Source: Spirochaetales bacterium Spiro_12
GTDB lineage: Bacteria; Spirochaetota; Spirochaetia; Treponematales; Rectinemataceae
Assembly: GCA_001603165.1 (NCBI GenBank)
Contig: LVBN01000009.1
Span: forward strand, 1 to 43,494
Length of the DNA: 43,494 nt
Reading direction: 5' to 3'
The notes below the pieces were generated by a model. The model searched no databases and was not told where the DNA came from. It saw nothing but the letters and a program-made list of their open reading frames with translations. Below are positions 1,101-6,950 of the stretch, in pieces (within the stretch, counting starts at the first letter, position 1; each line of letters opens with the position of its first letter). A program made the translations under genes and the position numbers.

Positions 1101-1170
1101 CGGGCTTCCTTTTCTTTTGTGCCGGCATGGTACTCTAAAAGCTCGACTCTTGTCATTGCCGAGACGCTCC

Positions 1171-1199
1171 TTTACATGAATCCGGCGTTCGTTCACAAT
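1171..1199 (+). promoter_or_regulatory. putative nagA operon promoter, leaderless
   Basis: TTTACA (1171-1176) is followed after 17 bases by CACAAT (1194-1199). The ATG at 1209 is only 9 bases further and has no Shine-Dalgarno sequence, so the transcript may start at or beside the start codon. The promoter also argues against the alternative ATG at 1176, which lies inside the -35 box. Confidence 0.4.
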
Positions 1200-1208
1200 G
1201 CCTTAGCT

Positions 1209-2417
1209 ATGACCGATGGATTTATTCTCTCTGACGTCGGAATACTTCTCCCCGAAAGGCTTTTATATGAGGGCAGTCTCGTTGTAGAGGCTGGAATCAT
1301 CCGATGGATCGGCGAGGGCGAAATTCCCCAGGAATGGGCTGGCGGAGCGCGGATCGGAGACCTGCCTGTAGTCGAGTGTGGTGGAGTATGGATCAGTCCG
1401 CCTATTATCGAGCTGCATATACATGGAGCCTTCGGCTATGGCTTTGAGACAGCCATTGATGGAGCGGCTTTACGGGATTTAGCTGCGAAGCTGGAAACAA
1501 AGGGCGTGGGGCGCTTTTTACCCACGATTTTATGGGATGAGGCTGCGGTAAAAAACCTCCTGACTGCCATCGACGACTCCGGACTCTACGGATCGGTCAT
1601 TCCTGGAATTTACCTGGAAGGGCCTTTCATCAATTCCAAGCGAAGGGGGGGGATAGGCCTCGAGCAGATCTGTCAGGTTGAGGTGTCATTACTGGAGAAG
1701 GTGCTCGAAACCTGTGCGGGCAAGCTGAGGATCATGACTCTCGCTCCTGAATTGCCGAATATTGAAAGCCTTTATCCGCTTTTAAAAAAGGCGGGGGTTA
1801 TGATCGCTCTCGGTCATTCCGATGCTAAAGCATCGGCGAAGCTGCCGCCAGAACCTTTTTCGATTACGCATCTGTTCAACGCGATGAGCGGATTCGACCA
1901 TAAAGAAGGCGGACTGGCCAACATTGCATTGGACGGTGGCGCCGGCTGGGTCGAACTTAATGCGGATGGTGTGCATGTGAGCCCTCAGGCGATGCGCAGC
2001 GCCCTACGCTGCATAGACCCCGCTTCACTGATATTGACTAGCGATGCGGTGGCTCCCGCAGGGCTGGGGTACGGGGATTACAGTTATTTCGGCAAGGCTG
2101 TGCGCTCCGATACCTCGGGGGTCAGGTATGCGCAAGAGGGAACGTTGATCGGATCGAGCTTGCTGGGCATCGATATAGTGCGTTCATTTGCCGCCGCGAC
2201 CGGCTGCGGGCTGCCGCAGGCCTTTTCCTGCATGAGCGCCAATCCGGAAGCTCTTCTCGACTGTGCAGGGGGGGCCGGCGGAAGCCGGCTTGAGTCTGGG
2301 GAAAAGGCTGATTTCTTTATATGGAACAGGGATTTTAGCGCTTGCAGGAGAATCGATGGCCGCATTCCCCGGGACTTGAGTCTTGGCGGCGCAGCTTCGT
2401 TACTCGAAAGGTTATAG
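1209..2417 (+). CDS. nagA: N-acetylglucosamine-6-phosphate deacetylase
   Basis: This about 402-residue amidohydrolase removes acetate from GlcNAc-6-phosphate to give glucosamine-6-phosphate, feeding amino-sugar catabolism and cell-wall recycling in the cytosol. The family motifs appear in order: ELHIHG (metal-binding HxH), YLEGPFIN with the metal-binding Glu, ALGHSDA, ITHLFNAMS, and ILTSDAVAPAG with the catalytic Asp. Length is close to the usual 380-400. The start is uncertain: ATG 1209 fits a promoter just upstream, while ATG 1176 would add 11 residues. Neither has a clear ribosome site. The alr gene begins 4 bases after the stop, so nagA heads a five-gene operon with wall and lysine genes. 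No nagB is present here. Confidence 0.93.
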   Translation: MTDGFILSDVGILLPERLLYEGSLVVEAGIIRWIGEGEIPQEWAGGARIGDLPVVECGGVWISPPIIELHIHGAFGYGFETAIDGAALRDLAAKLETKGVGRFLPTILWDEAAVKNLLTAIDDSGLYGSVIPGIYLEGPFINSKRRGGIGLEQICQVEVSLLEKVLETCAGKLRIMTLAPELPNIESLYPLLKKAGVMIALGHSDAKASAKLPPEPFSITHLFNAMSGFDHKEGGLANIALDGGAGWVELNADGVHVSPQAMRSALRCIDPASLILTSDAVAPAGLGYGDYSYFGKAVRSDTSGVRYAQEGTLIGSSLLGIDIVRSFAAATGCGLPQAFSCMSANPEALLDCAGGAGGSRLESGEKADFFIWNRDFSACRRIDGRIPRDLSLGGAASLLERL

Positions 2418-2421
2418 ATCG

Positions 2422-3534
2422 ATGATACACAGAAAGGCTTCGGCCTATATACACAAGGGAAATCTCGAAAACAACCTGCGACAACTCAGGGCAATCGCGG
2501 GTAGCTCGAAAATTTGCGCGGTCATCAAGGCCGATGCCTATGGGCATGGGGCGGTTATAATCTCACGTGTCCTGGCTGATGCGGGGGTGGATTTTCTCGC
2601 CGTCGCCTACCTTGAAGAGGCATTGGAGCTGCGGGAGGCTGGAATAAAGACTCCCTTGCTCGTTCTGGGCACGACTGATCCGGGCAATGCGGACATAATC
2701 GTGTCCAACCGCATAAGCCAAACCGTGTTTACCCAGGACCTGGCCAAGGCCTTGTCCGAATCGGCGCTCCGCCTGGGCAGACCGGCCTTTGTGCATGTAA
2801 AGATTGATACGGGCATGCACCGCCAGGGTATCGAACCCAGACAGGCGGGCTCCTTTGTCAGTTTTGTGTCCCGGCTCGGCGGGGTAAGAATCGAAGGCTG
2901 CTATTCCCATTTTACCGAAGCAGACAACCCTGATTCGGATTTCTCTACCCGTCAGATCGAGGTATTCAATAGGGCATTGGATGCGATACGGGCGGAAGGA
3001 ATCGAGCCGGGGATCAGGCATATGGCCAATAGCGCGGCGTTATTGCGGATTCCCGAATCCAGAATGGACATGGTAAGACCGGGAGTGCTCCTCTACGGCT
3101 TGTCTCCCGACGCGGATCATCGGCTACCCGGGGGCTTTAAGCCCGTGATGGAATTCCGCGCCGCAGTGACTAGCCTCCGGGATATCGGCGAAGGGGAGGG
3201 GGTGAGCTACGGGAGGATATTCACCGCCTCTAGGCCTACCCGCATCGCTCTGCTGCAGGTAGGCTACGCCGACGGCTACTCGCGCCACCTTTCCAACAGG
3301 GCGGCGGTGGTGATACGGGGAAAGAGGGCGCCGGTGGCCGGCAGGGTATGTATGGACCAAATCATGGTGGATGTAACCGATATTCCCGAAGCCCGGGTCG
3401 GCGATGAGGCGACTCTCTTCGGCCTGCCCGAGCTGCCCGCCGGGGAGCTGGCCGAGATCATGGGGACCATAGACTATGAGGTCAGTTGCGGAATATCCAA
3501 GCGGGTACCGCGCGTGCTTATCGAGAGGGGCTGA
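2422..3534 (+). CDS. alr: alanine racemase
   Basis: This 370-residue PLP-dependent fold-type III enzyme interconverts L- and D-alanine for peptidoglycan. The PLP lysine sits in VIKADAYGHG (about K36). The catalytic tyrosine of the second half is in VGYADGY, and the C-terminal domain has RVCMDQIMVDVT and GISKRVPR. The ATG at 2422 is chosen because family members begin close to the first beta strand, and AAAGG lies about 10 bases upstream, inside the end of nagA. The stop TGA overlaps the next ATG by one base, so alr and dapF are probably translationally coupled. A role in racemising another amino acid cannot be excluded, but the motifs are those of standard Alr. Confidence 0.94.
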   Translation: MIHRKASAYIHKGNLENNLRQLRAIAGSSKICAVIKADAYGHGAVIISRVLADAGVDFLAVAYLEEALELREAGIKTPLLVLGTTDPGNADIIVSNRISQTVFTQDLAKALSESALRLGRPAFVHVKIDTGMHRQGIEPRQAGSFVSFVSRLGGVRIEGCYSHFTEADNPDSDFSTRQIEVFNRALDAIRAEGIEPGIRHMANSAALLRIPESRMDMVRPGVLLYGLSPDADHRLPGGFKPVMEFRAAVTSLRDIGEGEGVSYGRIFTASRPTRIALLQVGYADGYSRHLSNRAAVVIRGKRAPVAGRVCMDQIMVDVTDIPEARVGDEATLFGLPELPAGELAEIMGTIDYEVSCGISKRVPRVLIERG

Positions 3535-4442
3535 TGAGCGTTCAGTTCAGAAAATACCAGGCTCTGGGCAATGACTATATCGTTATCGATCCCCGGGAAT
3601 TTCCCTTTATCCCCGAAGCCAAGGCCATCAGGGCTATCTGCGACCGAAACTATGGCGCGGGGTCGGACGGCATTTTGTTAGGTCCCTTGAGCGGCTTTTC
3701 CGATCTTGGCGGGCTGCCTGCGGGACACATCGCGCAAGGCGCGAGTCCCTGGGTGAGAATATTCAATCCCGACGGCTCGGAGGCCGAAAAAAGCGGGAAC
3801 GGATTGAGAATCTTCTGTCTGTACCTGGCCGAAGAGGGCTATGTGGAAGACCGTCCTTTTTATGTCGAAACGAAGGGGGGAAGGGTCTCGGCCCAGGTGG
3901 AGAGCATCAATCCTCCTAGTATTCGAATCGATATGGGAAAGCCTTCCTTCTCCGCGAGGCAAGCCGGCTTGGCTACCGATGCAAAGGAGCTGCTGCTCGC
4001 CAAGCTCGAACTGGCCGGTGAAAGCTTCGAGGCGAGTTTCGTTTCCATGGGTAATCCCCATTGCGTGATTTTCGTGGAAGAACCAACGGCGGAGCTCGCG
4101 AAACGCTATGGTCCCTTGGTGGAGCGTCATCCGCTTTTCCCCAAGGCTACGAACGTGCAGTTCGCCAAGGTCCTGGACAGGCATTCCATGCGGATCGAAA
4201 TATGGGAGCGGGGCGCGGGGTACACCCTGGCCAGCGGTTCTTCTTCCTGCGCCGCCGCGTCGGTGGCCAAGAAGCTAGGGTTGGTGGAGGGCCCGGTGAC
4301 GATGAACATGCCGGGGGGGCGGCTCGAACTTGATGTGTCCACCGATTCGGTGACGATGAAGGGCCCCGCGTTGCGCGTTTTCGACGGCTGTTTTTCCGGC
4401 GCCTTACTAGCGACTCTCGGTTCGCTGGGCGCTCTGCGGTAA
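3534..4442 (+). CDS. dapF: diaminopimelate epimerase homologue with both catalytic cysteines replaced by serine
   Basis: This 302-residue protein has the two-lobed DapF fold signatures: the N-terminal KYQALGNDY, then NPDGSEAEKSGNG, then WERGAGYTLASGSSSCAA. Canonical DapF interconverts LL- and meso-diaminopimelate with a cysteine pair in CGNG and ACGTG. Here both are AGC serine codons, Ser87 and Ser234. The change is paired and the rest of each motif is intact, so sequencing error or random decay is unlikely. A segment of about 20 residues before VRIFNPDG also looks inserted. The start uses ATG 3534 with GAGAGGGG upstream. It lies between alr and an M20 deacetylase/lysA pair, so a lysine or wall role is likely. 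Whether it is a working epimerase, a slower variant or acts on another substrate is open. Confidence 0.82.
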   Translation: MSVQFRKYQALGNDYIVIDPREFPFIPEAKAIRAICDRNYGAGSDGILLGPLSGFSDLGGLPAGHIAQGASPWVRIFNPDGSEAEKSGNGLRIFCLYLAEEGYVEDRPFYVETKGGRVSAQVESINPPSIRIDMGKPSFSARQAGLATDAKELLLAKLELAGESFEASFVSMGNPHCVIFVEEPTAELAKRYGPLVERHPLFPKATNVQFAKVLDRHSMRIEIWERGAGYTLASGSSSCAAASVAKKLGLVEGPVTMNMPGGRLELDVSTDSVTMKGPALRVFDGCFSGALLATLGSLGALR

Positions 4443-4457
4443 AGCGAAGGGGATGTT

Positions 4458-5645
4458 ATGAAGGATCGCAAGGCTATTCTGGCTGAGGCCGAGGCTATGA
4501 AGGATTGGCTGGTGCGGATACGAAGGGATTTGCACGCCATTCCCGAACCGGGGGATGAGGAATACAAAACCCAGGAATACCTGTGCAAAACCCTCGAACA
4601 GTTGGGTATTCCCTTCCGCAAAATGCGGACAGCCGTGGTGGGCCTCGTGGAAGGCGCCGCGCCCGGGGCCGTCGTGGCCCTGCGCGCCGACATGGACGCC
4701 CTGCCGGTCCAGGAGCCGGATGACAGGCCCTACCGTTCCCGTCACGATGGGTATATGCACGCCTGCGGGCACGACGCGCACATGACCGTGGCCCTGGGCG
4801 CGGCGCGCTACTTTTCGGCGCACAGAGACGATTTCGCGGGGACGATAAAACTCCTGTTCCAGCCCGCGGAGGAAACCACCGGCGGGGCTGCGCCCATGAT
4901 CGCCGACGGGTGCCTGGAAAATCCCCGGGTCGATTACGTGCTGGGACTCCATGTCATGCCCGACGTTCAGGCGGGCATGATCGAGCTGAAACACGGGGCG
5001 CTCAACGGGGCTTCCGATTTCCTGGGGATAAAAATAAAAGGCAAGGGCGCCCATGCCGCCTATCCCAGCACCGGAATCGACGCGATAATGATCGCCGCGA
5101 AAGTCGTTGACGCCCTGCAGTCAGTGGTGTCGCGCAACGTTTCTCCCTTGGAGGAAGCGGTAATAACCGTAGGTACGATAAATGGCGGCCAACGCAACAA
5201 CATAATCGCCGACGAAGTATACATGACGGGCACCATAAGAACGACAAGCCCTGATGTGAGATCTAGAATCGCGCAACGCGTCAATTCCATAGTTGAAAAT
5301 ATTTCCGCCGCCCTTGGGGGCTCCGGCGAAGTGGAAATACGCCCGGGATACACTGCCCTGATAAATCACAAGGCTGTAGTGGACCTGGTCGAAAAAGAAG
5401 CGAAGGCTTTATTCGGGGATAAAAACCTCCTGTGGCGGGAAAAGCCCAGCCTTGGCGTGGAGGATTTCGCGTTTTTCCTGCAGGAGCGACCGGGCGCCTT
5501 TTATCATCTGGGCTGCGGGAATGGCGAAAAAGGCATAAGGGCGCCGCTCCATTCGAAGCTCTTCGATATCGATGAGCGTTGTCTACCCGTCGGCGTCGCC
5601 CTGCAAATATCCGCGGCCCTGGGCTTGTTGAAGGAGGGATGCTGA
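4458..5645 (+). CDS. M20 family amidohydrolase, candidate N-acyl-diaminopimelate or N-acyl-amino acid deacetylase
   Basis: A 395-residue zinc peptidase-fold amidohydrolase of the M20D/hippurate hydrolase type. Metal and catalytic motifs are seen in order: ALRADMDALPVQE, MHACGHDAHM and LFQPAEETTGGA. A dimerisation (lid) domain occupies roughly residues 180-290, and the C-terminal metal ligand lies in GVEDFAFF. GAAGGGG-like spacing before ATG 4458 supports the start. Family members remove acetyl or other acyl groups from amino acids, including N-acetyl-diaminopimelate in the acetylase branch of lysine synthesis. Position between dapF and lysA makes that substrate the leading guess. The family is promiscuous, so the assignment is tentative. 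Confidence 0.85.
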   Translation: MKDRKAILAEAEAMKDWLVRIRRDLHAIPEPGDEEYKTQEYLCKTLEQLGIPFRKMRTAVVGLVEGAAPGAVVALRADMDALPVQEPDDRPYRSRHDGYMHACGHDAHMTVALGAARYFSAHRDDFAGTIKLLFQPAEETTGGAAPMIADGCLENPRVDYVLGLHVMPDVQAGMIELKHGALNGASDFLGIKIKGKGAHAAYPSTGIDAIMIAAKVVDALQSVVSRNVSPLEEAVITVGTINGGQRNNIIADEVYMTGTIRTTSPDVRSRIAQRVNSIVENISAALGGSGEVEIRPGYTALINHKAVVDLVEKEAKALFGDKNLLWREKPSLGVEDFAFFLQERPGAFYHLGCGNGEKGIRAPLHSKLFDIDERCLPVGVALQISAALGLLKEGC

Positions 5646-6950
5646 ATGGACATCGGCGAATTCAATTCCCATGCCAGCGTACGGTTCAATCACCTGTTCT
5701 ACGACGGAGTCGATACCGTGGAACTCGCCTCCCATTACGGGACGCCTCTGTATGTCGTTTCCGAATCCGCCGTCAGAGAACGTTGTTCGAGCGTGAGGAA
5801 AGCTTTTCTCGAAAAATACCCCAATACGCGCGCGGTTTACGCCTCCAAGGCGTTCCAAACCCTGGACATGTGCAGGATCATCGACCAGGAGGGGCTGGGG
5901 ATCGACGTGGTTTCGGGCGGCGAATTGTTCGCCGCCTTGAAAGCGCAAGTAAATCCCGGGGCGATCGTCTTCCACGGGAACGCGAAAACCCTGGACGAAC
6001 TCGAATACGCCATAGAAAACGATGTCGGACGAATCATTTCCGACAACCTGCGGGAGATCAGCGAAGTAGAGCGCATCGCCGCCCGCCTGGGCAAGAAGGT
6101 AAAACTCCTTTATCGGATAACCCCCGGCGTGGACAGCCACACCCATCGCTTCATCTCGACCGGAAGCCTGGATTCGAAATTCGGCATTCCCCTCGATTCC
6201 TCGGTGCGGAACGATTATATGCGCGCCGTCCTCAACTCCCCTCACATCGATTTTAGAGGCTTCCATTTCCATATAGGCTCCCAGATCAGGGACAATTTTT
6301 CCCACCTCGCCGCCCTCGGCGTCGCCCTGAAACTCATCGTGGATGTTCATACGGATTACGGATTCGATGTGTCGGAACTCAACCTCGGCGGCGGTTTCGG
6401 CATCCGCTATCTTCCCGGCGATCCGGAAACGGAACTCGGCTATTTCCTGGATCCCATGATGCAGCTTATCCGCTTCGAAATGGAAAAGGCTAAAATCCCC
6501 ATGCCCATGGTAACCATCGAACCAGGACGGTGGATCATCGGCGAAGCAGGCATTACCCTCTACGAGCTCCGTTCCGTCAAGACTATTCCCGGGATTCGAA
6601 CCTATGTGGGCGTGGACGGAGGAATGACGGACAATATAAGACCGGCCCTCTACGAAGCCAGGTATCACGCCATCAGCGCGAACAAGGCCGACTGGAGCCA
6701 CGATACCGTCGTTACCATAGCCGGAAAATGCTGCGAATCGGGGGATATCCTCGTCAAGGATGTGGGACTTGCCGAGCCGAAGCCCGGCGATATCGTCGCC
6801 GTTTTTTCCACCGGCGCCTACAATCACTCGATGGCTTCCAACTATAACAGAATTCCCCGTCCGGCGGTGGTCATGACCACCGGGGAGGGGAGGCATCGCC
6901 TATCGGTGCGGCGCGAAAGCTACGAGGATATGCTGATCCGGGAGTTTTAG
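5646..6950 (+). CDS. lysA: diaminopimelate decarboxylase
   Basis: This 434-residue PLP enzyme of alanine racemase fold type III decarboxylates meso-diaminopimelate to L-lysine. Family signatures are the PLP-lysine region AVYASKAF, HFHIGSQI, the glycine-rich loop LNLGGGFGI, EPGRWIIGEAG, and the substrate-binding CCESGD followed by an AYNHSMASNYN segment. GGAGG lies about 9 bases before ATG 5646, and the M20 stop codon abuts it. It is the last gene of the nagA operon and is followed by a GC-rich hairpin. Other fold III decarboxylases (D-ornithine/D-lysine, carboxynorspermidine) are possible. CESGD and the length favour LysA, though the odd DapF upstream justifies testing. Confidence 0.9.
   Translation: MDIGEFNSHASVRFNHLFYDGVDTVELASHYGTPLYVVSESAVRERCSSVRKAFLEKYPNTRAVYASKAFQTLDMCRIIDQEGLGIDVVSGGELFAALKAQVNPGAIVFHGNAKTLDELEYAIENDVGRIISDNLREISEVERIAARLGKKVKLLYRITPGVDSHTHRFISTGSLDSKFGIPLDSSVRNDYMRAVLNSPHIDFRGFHFHIGSQIRDNFSHLAALGVALKLIVDVHTDYGFDVSELNLGGGFGIRYLPGDPETELGYFLDPMMQLIRFEMEKAKIPMPMVTIEPGRWIIGEAGITLYELRSVKTIPGIRTYVGVDGGMTDNIRPALYEARYHAISANKADWSHDTVVTIAGKCCESGDILVKDVGLAEPKPGDIVAVFSTGAYNHSMASNYNRIPRPAVVMTTGEGRHRLSVRRESYEDMLIREF

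Follow-up and report, generated by a model that had tools for sequence, protein, structure and literature searches.

A DapF-family clade with serine at both catalytic cysteine positions, probably a diaminopimelate epimerase that works without the thiol pair

Textbooks present cofactor-free racemases as thiol/thiolate enzymes, and the exchange of a catalytic cysteine for serine is a standard way to switch them off. Ordinary diaminopimelate (DAP) epimerase, DapF, uses such a thiol/thiolate pair as acid and base.

Two lines of published evidence speak against an epimerase that uses serine. Engineered Cys-to-Ser mutants lose nearly all activity: those of PddB retain <0.1% (PMC8225329), a similar loss in Mt-DapF is cited in the same article, and the activity of HisR mutants is greatly reduced (PMC11602996). 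Furthermore, the natural Ser/Thr pair of the proline racemase superfamily belongs to a dehydratase, although a natural Ser/Cys pair in the same superfamily makes a working epimerase (PMC4113996), indicating that one serine can work. A search of the open literature, with most subscription journals outside its reach, returned no paper on a Ser/Ser DapF and no precedent for a two-serine pair.

The window analyzed here is a stretch of 43,494 nucleotides from Spirochaetales bacterium Spiro_12 (contig LVBN01000009.1). The genes around its dapF and the codons at the two catalytic positions are as follows.

2422-3534, + strand: alr, alanine racemase (TIGR00492, 376 bits, over the cut-off)
3534-4442, + strand: dapF of the Ser/Ser type, 302 aa (PF01678, 167.6 bits; TIGR00652, 216 bits)
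3792-3794, + strand: Ser87 codon AGC, replacing the first catalytic cysteine (Cys73 of Haemophilus influenzae DapF)
4233-4235, + strand: Ser234 codon AGC, replacing the second catalytic cysteine (Cys217)
4458-5645, + strand: M20 amidohydrolase, candidate N-acyl-DAP deacylase (TIGR01891, 370 bits, over the cut-off)
5646-6950, + strand: lysA, diaminopimelate decarboxylase (TIGR01048, 429.8 bits against a cut-off of 297.9)

The score against TIGR00652, the curated DapF model, exceeds the cut-off of 114.65 and identifies the window protein as a full-length DapF; the protein matches PF01678 alone and not PF05544, the proline racemase superfamily. A rereading of the two codons bears out the claim of the first-pass annotation that both catalytic cysteines are serine. 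The first stands in the context AAA-AGC-GGG-AAC (motif KSGNG) and the second in CTG-GCC-AGC-GGT (motif LASGSSSC), and pairwise alignment with solved DapFs places Ser87 and Ser234 opposite the catalytic cysteines (KSGNG vs MCGNG; ASGSSSC vs ACGTGAC). The cysteines of the protein are found at positions 36, 95, 177, 239, and 286, and the catalytic positions hold none. Judged by its sequence, the window protein is a member of the DapF family that lies outside the two-cysteine mechanistic class. An AlphaFold2 model (pLDDT 94.1) displays the DapF fold over the entire chain, with Ser87 directly preceding helix 88-100 and Ser234 directly preceding helix 235-247. The best PDB matches of the model are DapFs, led by a cyanobacterial DapF (9mro, Z 37.2, 2.0 Å over 272 residues).

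The start of dapF is overlapped by alr by one base, and the stop codon of the M20 gene is followed immediately by the start of lysA. The operon order proposed earlier (nagA-alr-dapF-M20-lysA) holds for the last four genes but not for nagA, since the NagA-like protein scores 157.7 bits against a NagA cut-off of 225.65. This protein (window positions 1146-2417) has no Pfam match at 1e-3 and is a diverged amidohydrolase. Elsewhere in the genome, contig 16 carries aspartokinase, dapB (121.9 bits, cut-off 122), and dapD (260.8 bits, cut-off 204) together, which with the adjacent lysA places dapF in a DAP/lysine pathway setting. A whole-genome profile search found no second PF01678 protein, leaving this dapF as the sole DapF found. 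The DapL route was considered and rejected for this genome (best match 256 bits against 593), DapD being present instead.

The MurE proteins of the window's family (L149, L150, L153-L156, L158-L161, and L163) carry DEDPR instead of the meso-DAP-type motif DNPR, a sequence difference that suggests a different third residue in the wall peptide of this family. Ornithine in the cell wall is a known trait of spirochaetes. Based on the MurE motif and the wall ornithine of spirochaetes, DapF in the window's organism probably serves lysine and a cell-wall role is doubtful, so that of the working cell-wall or lysine route suggested by the first-pass annotation the DAP/lysine setting stands and the cell-wall part is in doubt here.

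The finding is far larger than one gene. Within the window's own family, which belongs to the Spirochaetota as judged by its named members, serine is present at both sites in 20 out of 20 typable rows including the window (one row of the alignment ends after the second site), and the lysine before the first serine is invariant in all 20. In a scan of species genomes, 80 out of 80 nearest loci were Ser/Ser (for one locus the typing covers the first site alone). They are distributed over the Spirochaetota, Verrucomicrobiota, Nitrospirota, Aquificota, Planctomycetota, Cyanobacteriota, Pseudomonadota, Bacillota, Bacteroidota, Chloroflexota, and others; as the best matches to a Ser/Ser profile, these loci measure breadth and not frequency among all DapFs. 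Overall, serine is invariant at both sites across 156 Ser/Ser rows from many phyla, with single genomes repeated in some rows. All 52 Ser/Ser clade members compared with the profiles match PF01678, and seven of them also match PF05544 weakly (best E 1.2e-5).

A clade that combines SGNG with ASG, which had been put forward as something to look for, does exist: in the alignment and in a tree with Cys/Cys DapFs (short search, LG+G4) the Ser/Ser rows form a single group (SH-aLRT 99) that requires one change of state. AGY and TCN serine codons are both used at each site and all four combinations were seen. Serine has thus been kept through codon turnover, indicating that serine itself is under selection.

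A second variant, with serine first and cysteine second (EFSGNG / ACGTG), was observed in Nitrospiraceae (L211, L213, L215-L218, and L220-L224) and is apparently the sole DapF in 11 genomes of the Nitrospiraceae sample. It resembles the Ser/Ser clade in being a sole-copy DapF-family protein with a first-position serine and differs in the retained second cysteine and in tree placement, because the single row included in the tree groups with the Cys/Cys DapFs. On this placement, the first catalytic cysteine was probably replaced more than once. In genomes of the same order, four DapF homologues (L023, L025, L026, and L031) carry glycine or alanine at the first position and cysteine at the second, and L031 has seemingly lost both motifs; these homologues are possibly decayed or doing something else.

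Other members of the fold provide partial parallels. The Ser/Cys 4-hydroxyproline 2-epimerase (B9JQV3) shares with the clade the fold and a natural first-position serine in a working two-base epimerase (PMC4113996), but only one of its cysteines is replaced, it belongs to PF05544, and it acts on another substrate. The Ser/Thr trans-3-hydroxyproline dehydratase (B9K4G4), like the clade, has cysteine at neither acid/base position; unlike the Ser/Ser clade as proposed here, it is a dehydratase and not an epimerase, and its second-position threonine adopts a non-catalytic pose. The DapF-fold racemases HisR, CntK, and PddB share the fold and two-base chemistry but are Cys/Cys enzymes with other substrates.

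The residues that bind DAP and the positions that became fixed with the serines were compared between the 156 Ser/Ser rows and 16 Cys/Cys rows. The structure of Anabaena DapF supplied the list of far-end ligands, and the offset in numbering relative to the two serines agrees with that protein (PMC12039745).

3576-3578, + strand: Tyr15, candidate helper; Tyr throughout the clade rows, Phe in most of the Cys/Cys set
3639-3641, + strand: Cys36, invariant in the clade; with Cys177 the only fixed cysteines
3765-3767, + strand: Asn78, far-end DAP ligand (Asn66 of Anabaena DapF), invariant in 156 rows
3789-3791, + strand: Lys86, adjoining Ser87 and a candidate helper of it, in 153/156 clade rows
4053-4055, + strand: Asn174, DAP ligand, invariant in 156 rows
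4062-4064, + strand: Cys177, invariant in the clade
4152-4154, + strand: Asn207, DAP ligand, invariant in 156 rows
4158-4160, + strand: Gln209, two residues past ligand Asn207, invariant only within the Ser/Ser clade
4206-4208, + strand: Glu225, DAP ligand, invariant in 156 rows
4209-4211, + strand: Arg226, DAP ligand, invariant in 156 rows

Asn174, Asn207, Glu225, and Arg226, like Asn78, hold the far end of DAP, and the near-end ligand Asn13 is likewise invariant in the 156 rows. Lys86, Tyr15, Gln209, Ser237, Cys36, and Cys177 are fixed or nearly so together with both serines, and Lys86 and Ser237 are missing in three rows only (two Lachnospiraceae loci and the second copy of one). In the 16 Cys/Cys rows, position 86 is Met, Gln, or Asn, position 209 is Glu, Gly, Asn, or His, Ser237 is replaced by Gly, and Ile93 by Cys. 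Tyr15 follows ligand Asn13 by two residues on a shared strand (residues 13-18 of the model), and both Tyr15 and Gln209 may face the active site, each being two residues past a ligand asparagine on one strand. The window protein therefore resembles the DapFs of H. influenzae, Anabaena, and Arabidopsis in sequence family, two-domain fold, lysine pathway context, all DAP-binding residues, and the helix N-termini at both acid/base positions, and differs from ordinary DapF in the serines for both catalytic cysteines, the lysine before the first serine, the serine for glycine three residues after the second serine, Tyr15, Gln209, and isoleucine for cysteine at position 93.

The strongest argument for function comes from genome content. 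Among the 31 genomes behind the loci, 13 contain a single PF01678 protein, the Ser/Ser one, and 18 contain further DapF copies, of which all 17 typed second copies are Cys/Cys. The Ser/Ser protein is the sole DapF found throughout the Hydrogenothermaceae and in part of the Nitrospiraceae. A DapF, apparently one per genome, is present in 37 out of the 41 genomes of the family to which a Sulfurihydrogenibium genome belongs, and all typed rows are Ser/Ser. A lysA gene over the cut-off was found in 20 out of 22 genomes checked, and the MurE proteins of Aquificota, Nitrospira, and Opitutaceae have the meso-DAP motif DNPR. A bypass through meso-DAP dehydrogenase was rejected, as the enzyme scored over the cut-off in 0/22 and 0/14 genomes (36 checked). 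DAP-dehydrogenase-like proteins scoring 110-117 bits against a cut-off of 180.6 were seen in three Nitrospira-family genomes at the following positions.

G157:C1:3800626-3801489: DAP-dehydrogenase-like protein
G165:C6:2376049-2376921: DAP-dehydrogenase-like protein
G087:C9:46491-47363: DAP-dehydrogenase-like protein

Aquificales are autotrophs (PMC4227106), and an obligately chemosynthetic life is described for Persephonella (PMC3635849), so that these bacteria must make their own lysine and cell-wall precursors. Where the Ser/Ser protein is the sole DapF beside lysA and no DAP dehydrogenase scores over the cut-off, epimerisation of DAP by anything but the Ser/Ser protein would call for a further, unknown enzyme.

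The gene neighborhood was rejected as a clue to another function, because no neighbor family shared across phyla was found among the Ser/Ser loci and the sharing was mostly Opitutaceae synteny. A comparison with 116 plasmid records, by sequence identity alone, found no copy over 60%. In the 18 genomes with extra DapF copies, the Ser/Ser copy could have another job. In Rahnella (L103:5001-9746), which also has a Cys/Cys DapF elsewhere, the Ser/Ser DapF is followed ~300 bases downstream by genes for an aromatic-acid transporter, a gallate dioxygenase, and an amidohydrolase, which points to a possible new use for the extra copy.

As the sole DapF found in many bacteria that need meso-DAP, the Ser/Ser protein probably does the chemistry of the Cys enzyme with serines, and we judge it probable that the dapF of the window specifies a functional enzyme for the epimerisation of LL-DAP to meso-DAP, with Ser87 and Ser234 taking the place of the thiol/thiolate acid/base pair. 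In the proposed mechanism, the two serines, each at the N-terminus of one of two helices that face each other, would act as acid and base and perform the proton transfers that turn LL-DAP into meso-DAP. The helix dipoles and the clade-fixed residues Lys86, Tyr15, Gln209, and Ser237 would jointly make the serine basic enough. The product would feed LysA, and hence lysine, in the window's genome, and would feed the cell wall as well in Aquificota and Nitrospira. On balance, we also lean towards the broader interpretation that the clade represents a natural thiol-free, cofactor-independent amino-acid epimerase whose serine pair, aided by a fixed Lys and Tyr, takes off the alpha-proton, and which evolved once from a Cys/Cys DapF, is spread over >10 phyla, and is the one DapF on which several autotrophic lineages rely. 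That serine carries out the same reaction is the simplest reading because the far-end DAP ligands are invariant and the protein is in many genomes the sole DapF beside lysA, with no DAP dehydrogenase; the ligands and the sole-copy genomes also argue against the changed substrate that the first-pass annotation had entertained.

The chief alternative, which we regard as unlikely, is a Ser/Ser protein that has DAP or a different diamino acid as its ligand but catalyzes some other reaction, for instance an elimination, a tautomerisation, or the slow racemisation of a substrate other than DAP; meso-DAP would then come from a racemase of unrelated type, perhaps PLP-dependent, with the neighboring Alr as an example. 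The dehydratase activity of the Ser/Thr members of the proline racemase superfamily (PMC4113996) and the position of alr directly upstream of dapF fit this alternative, as do the varied neighbors in genomes that also have a Cys/Cys copy (the gallate dioxygenase gene in Rahnella; SstT and a urea-transporter-like gene in Pseudomonas). However, the full set of far-end DAP ligands is invariant, and there are autotrophic lineages with lysA and a DNPR-type MurE in which the Ser/Ser protein is the sole DapF. We know of no other epimerase candidate in the autotrophic lineages that have only the Ser/Ser protein.

It is quite improbable that the protein epimerises DAP with bases other than the two serines, be they further cysteines such as Cys36 and Cys177 or other residues. 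These two cysteines are invariant in the 156 clade rows and present in only 7/16 and 6/16 Cys/Cys rows, but Cys177 is the cysteine of the GNPHC motif, which many ordinary DapFs have in addition to their catalytic cysteines, and in the model the helix N-termini facing the alpha-carbon appear to hold Ser87 and Ser234 and not Cys36 or Cys177. We give very little credence to a catalytically dead DapF kept for binding or regulation: both acid/base residues are lost and E. coli DapF binds RppH (PMC4227774), but many DAP-pathway genomes have no DapF besides the Ser/Ser protein, its ligand residues are invariant, and it shares an operon with lysA. Sequencing or assembly error at two codons, which had already seemed hard to reconcile with a paired replacement, is effectively refuted by the Ser/Ser pair common to independent genomes of >10 phyla (20/20 family rows and 80 loci) with serine codons of both families.

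If the proposed serine epimerase is correct, a clade that has the Ser/Ser protein as its sole DapF would show that racemase chemistry is possible with alcohols, and the co-fixed residues would point to how. The DapF annotation model would then say nothing on the catalytic residues of the proteins it identifies, and the Ser/Ser clade would be missed by thiol-directed DapF inhibitors.
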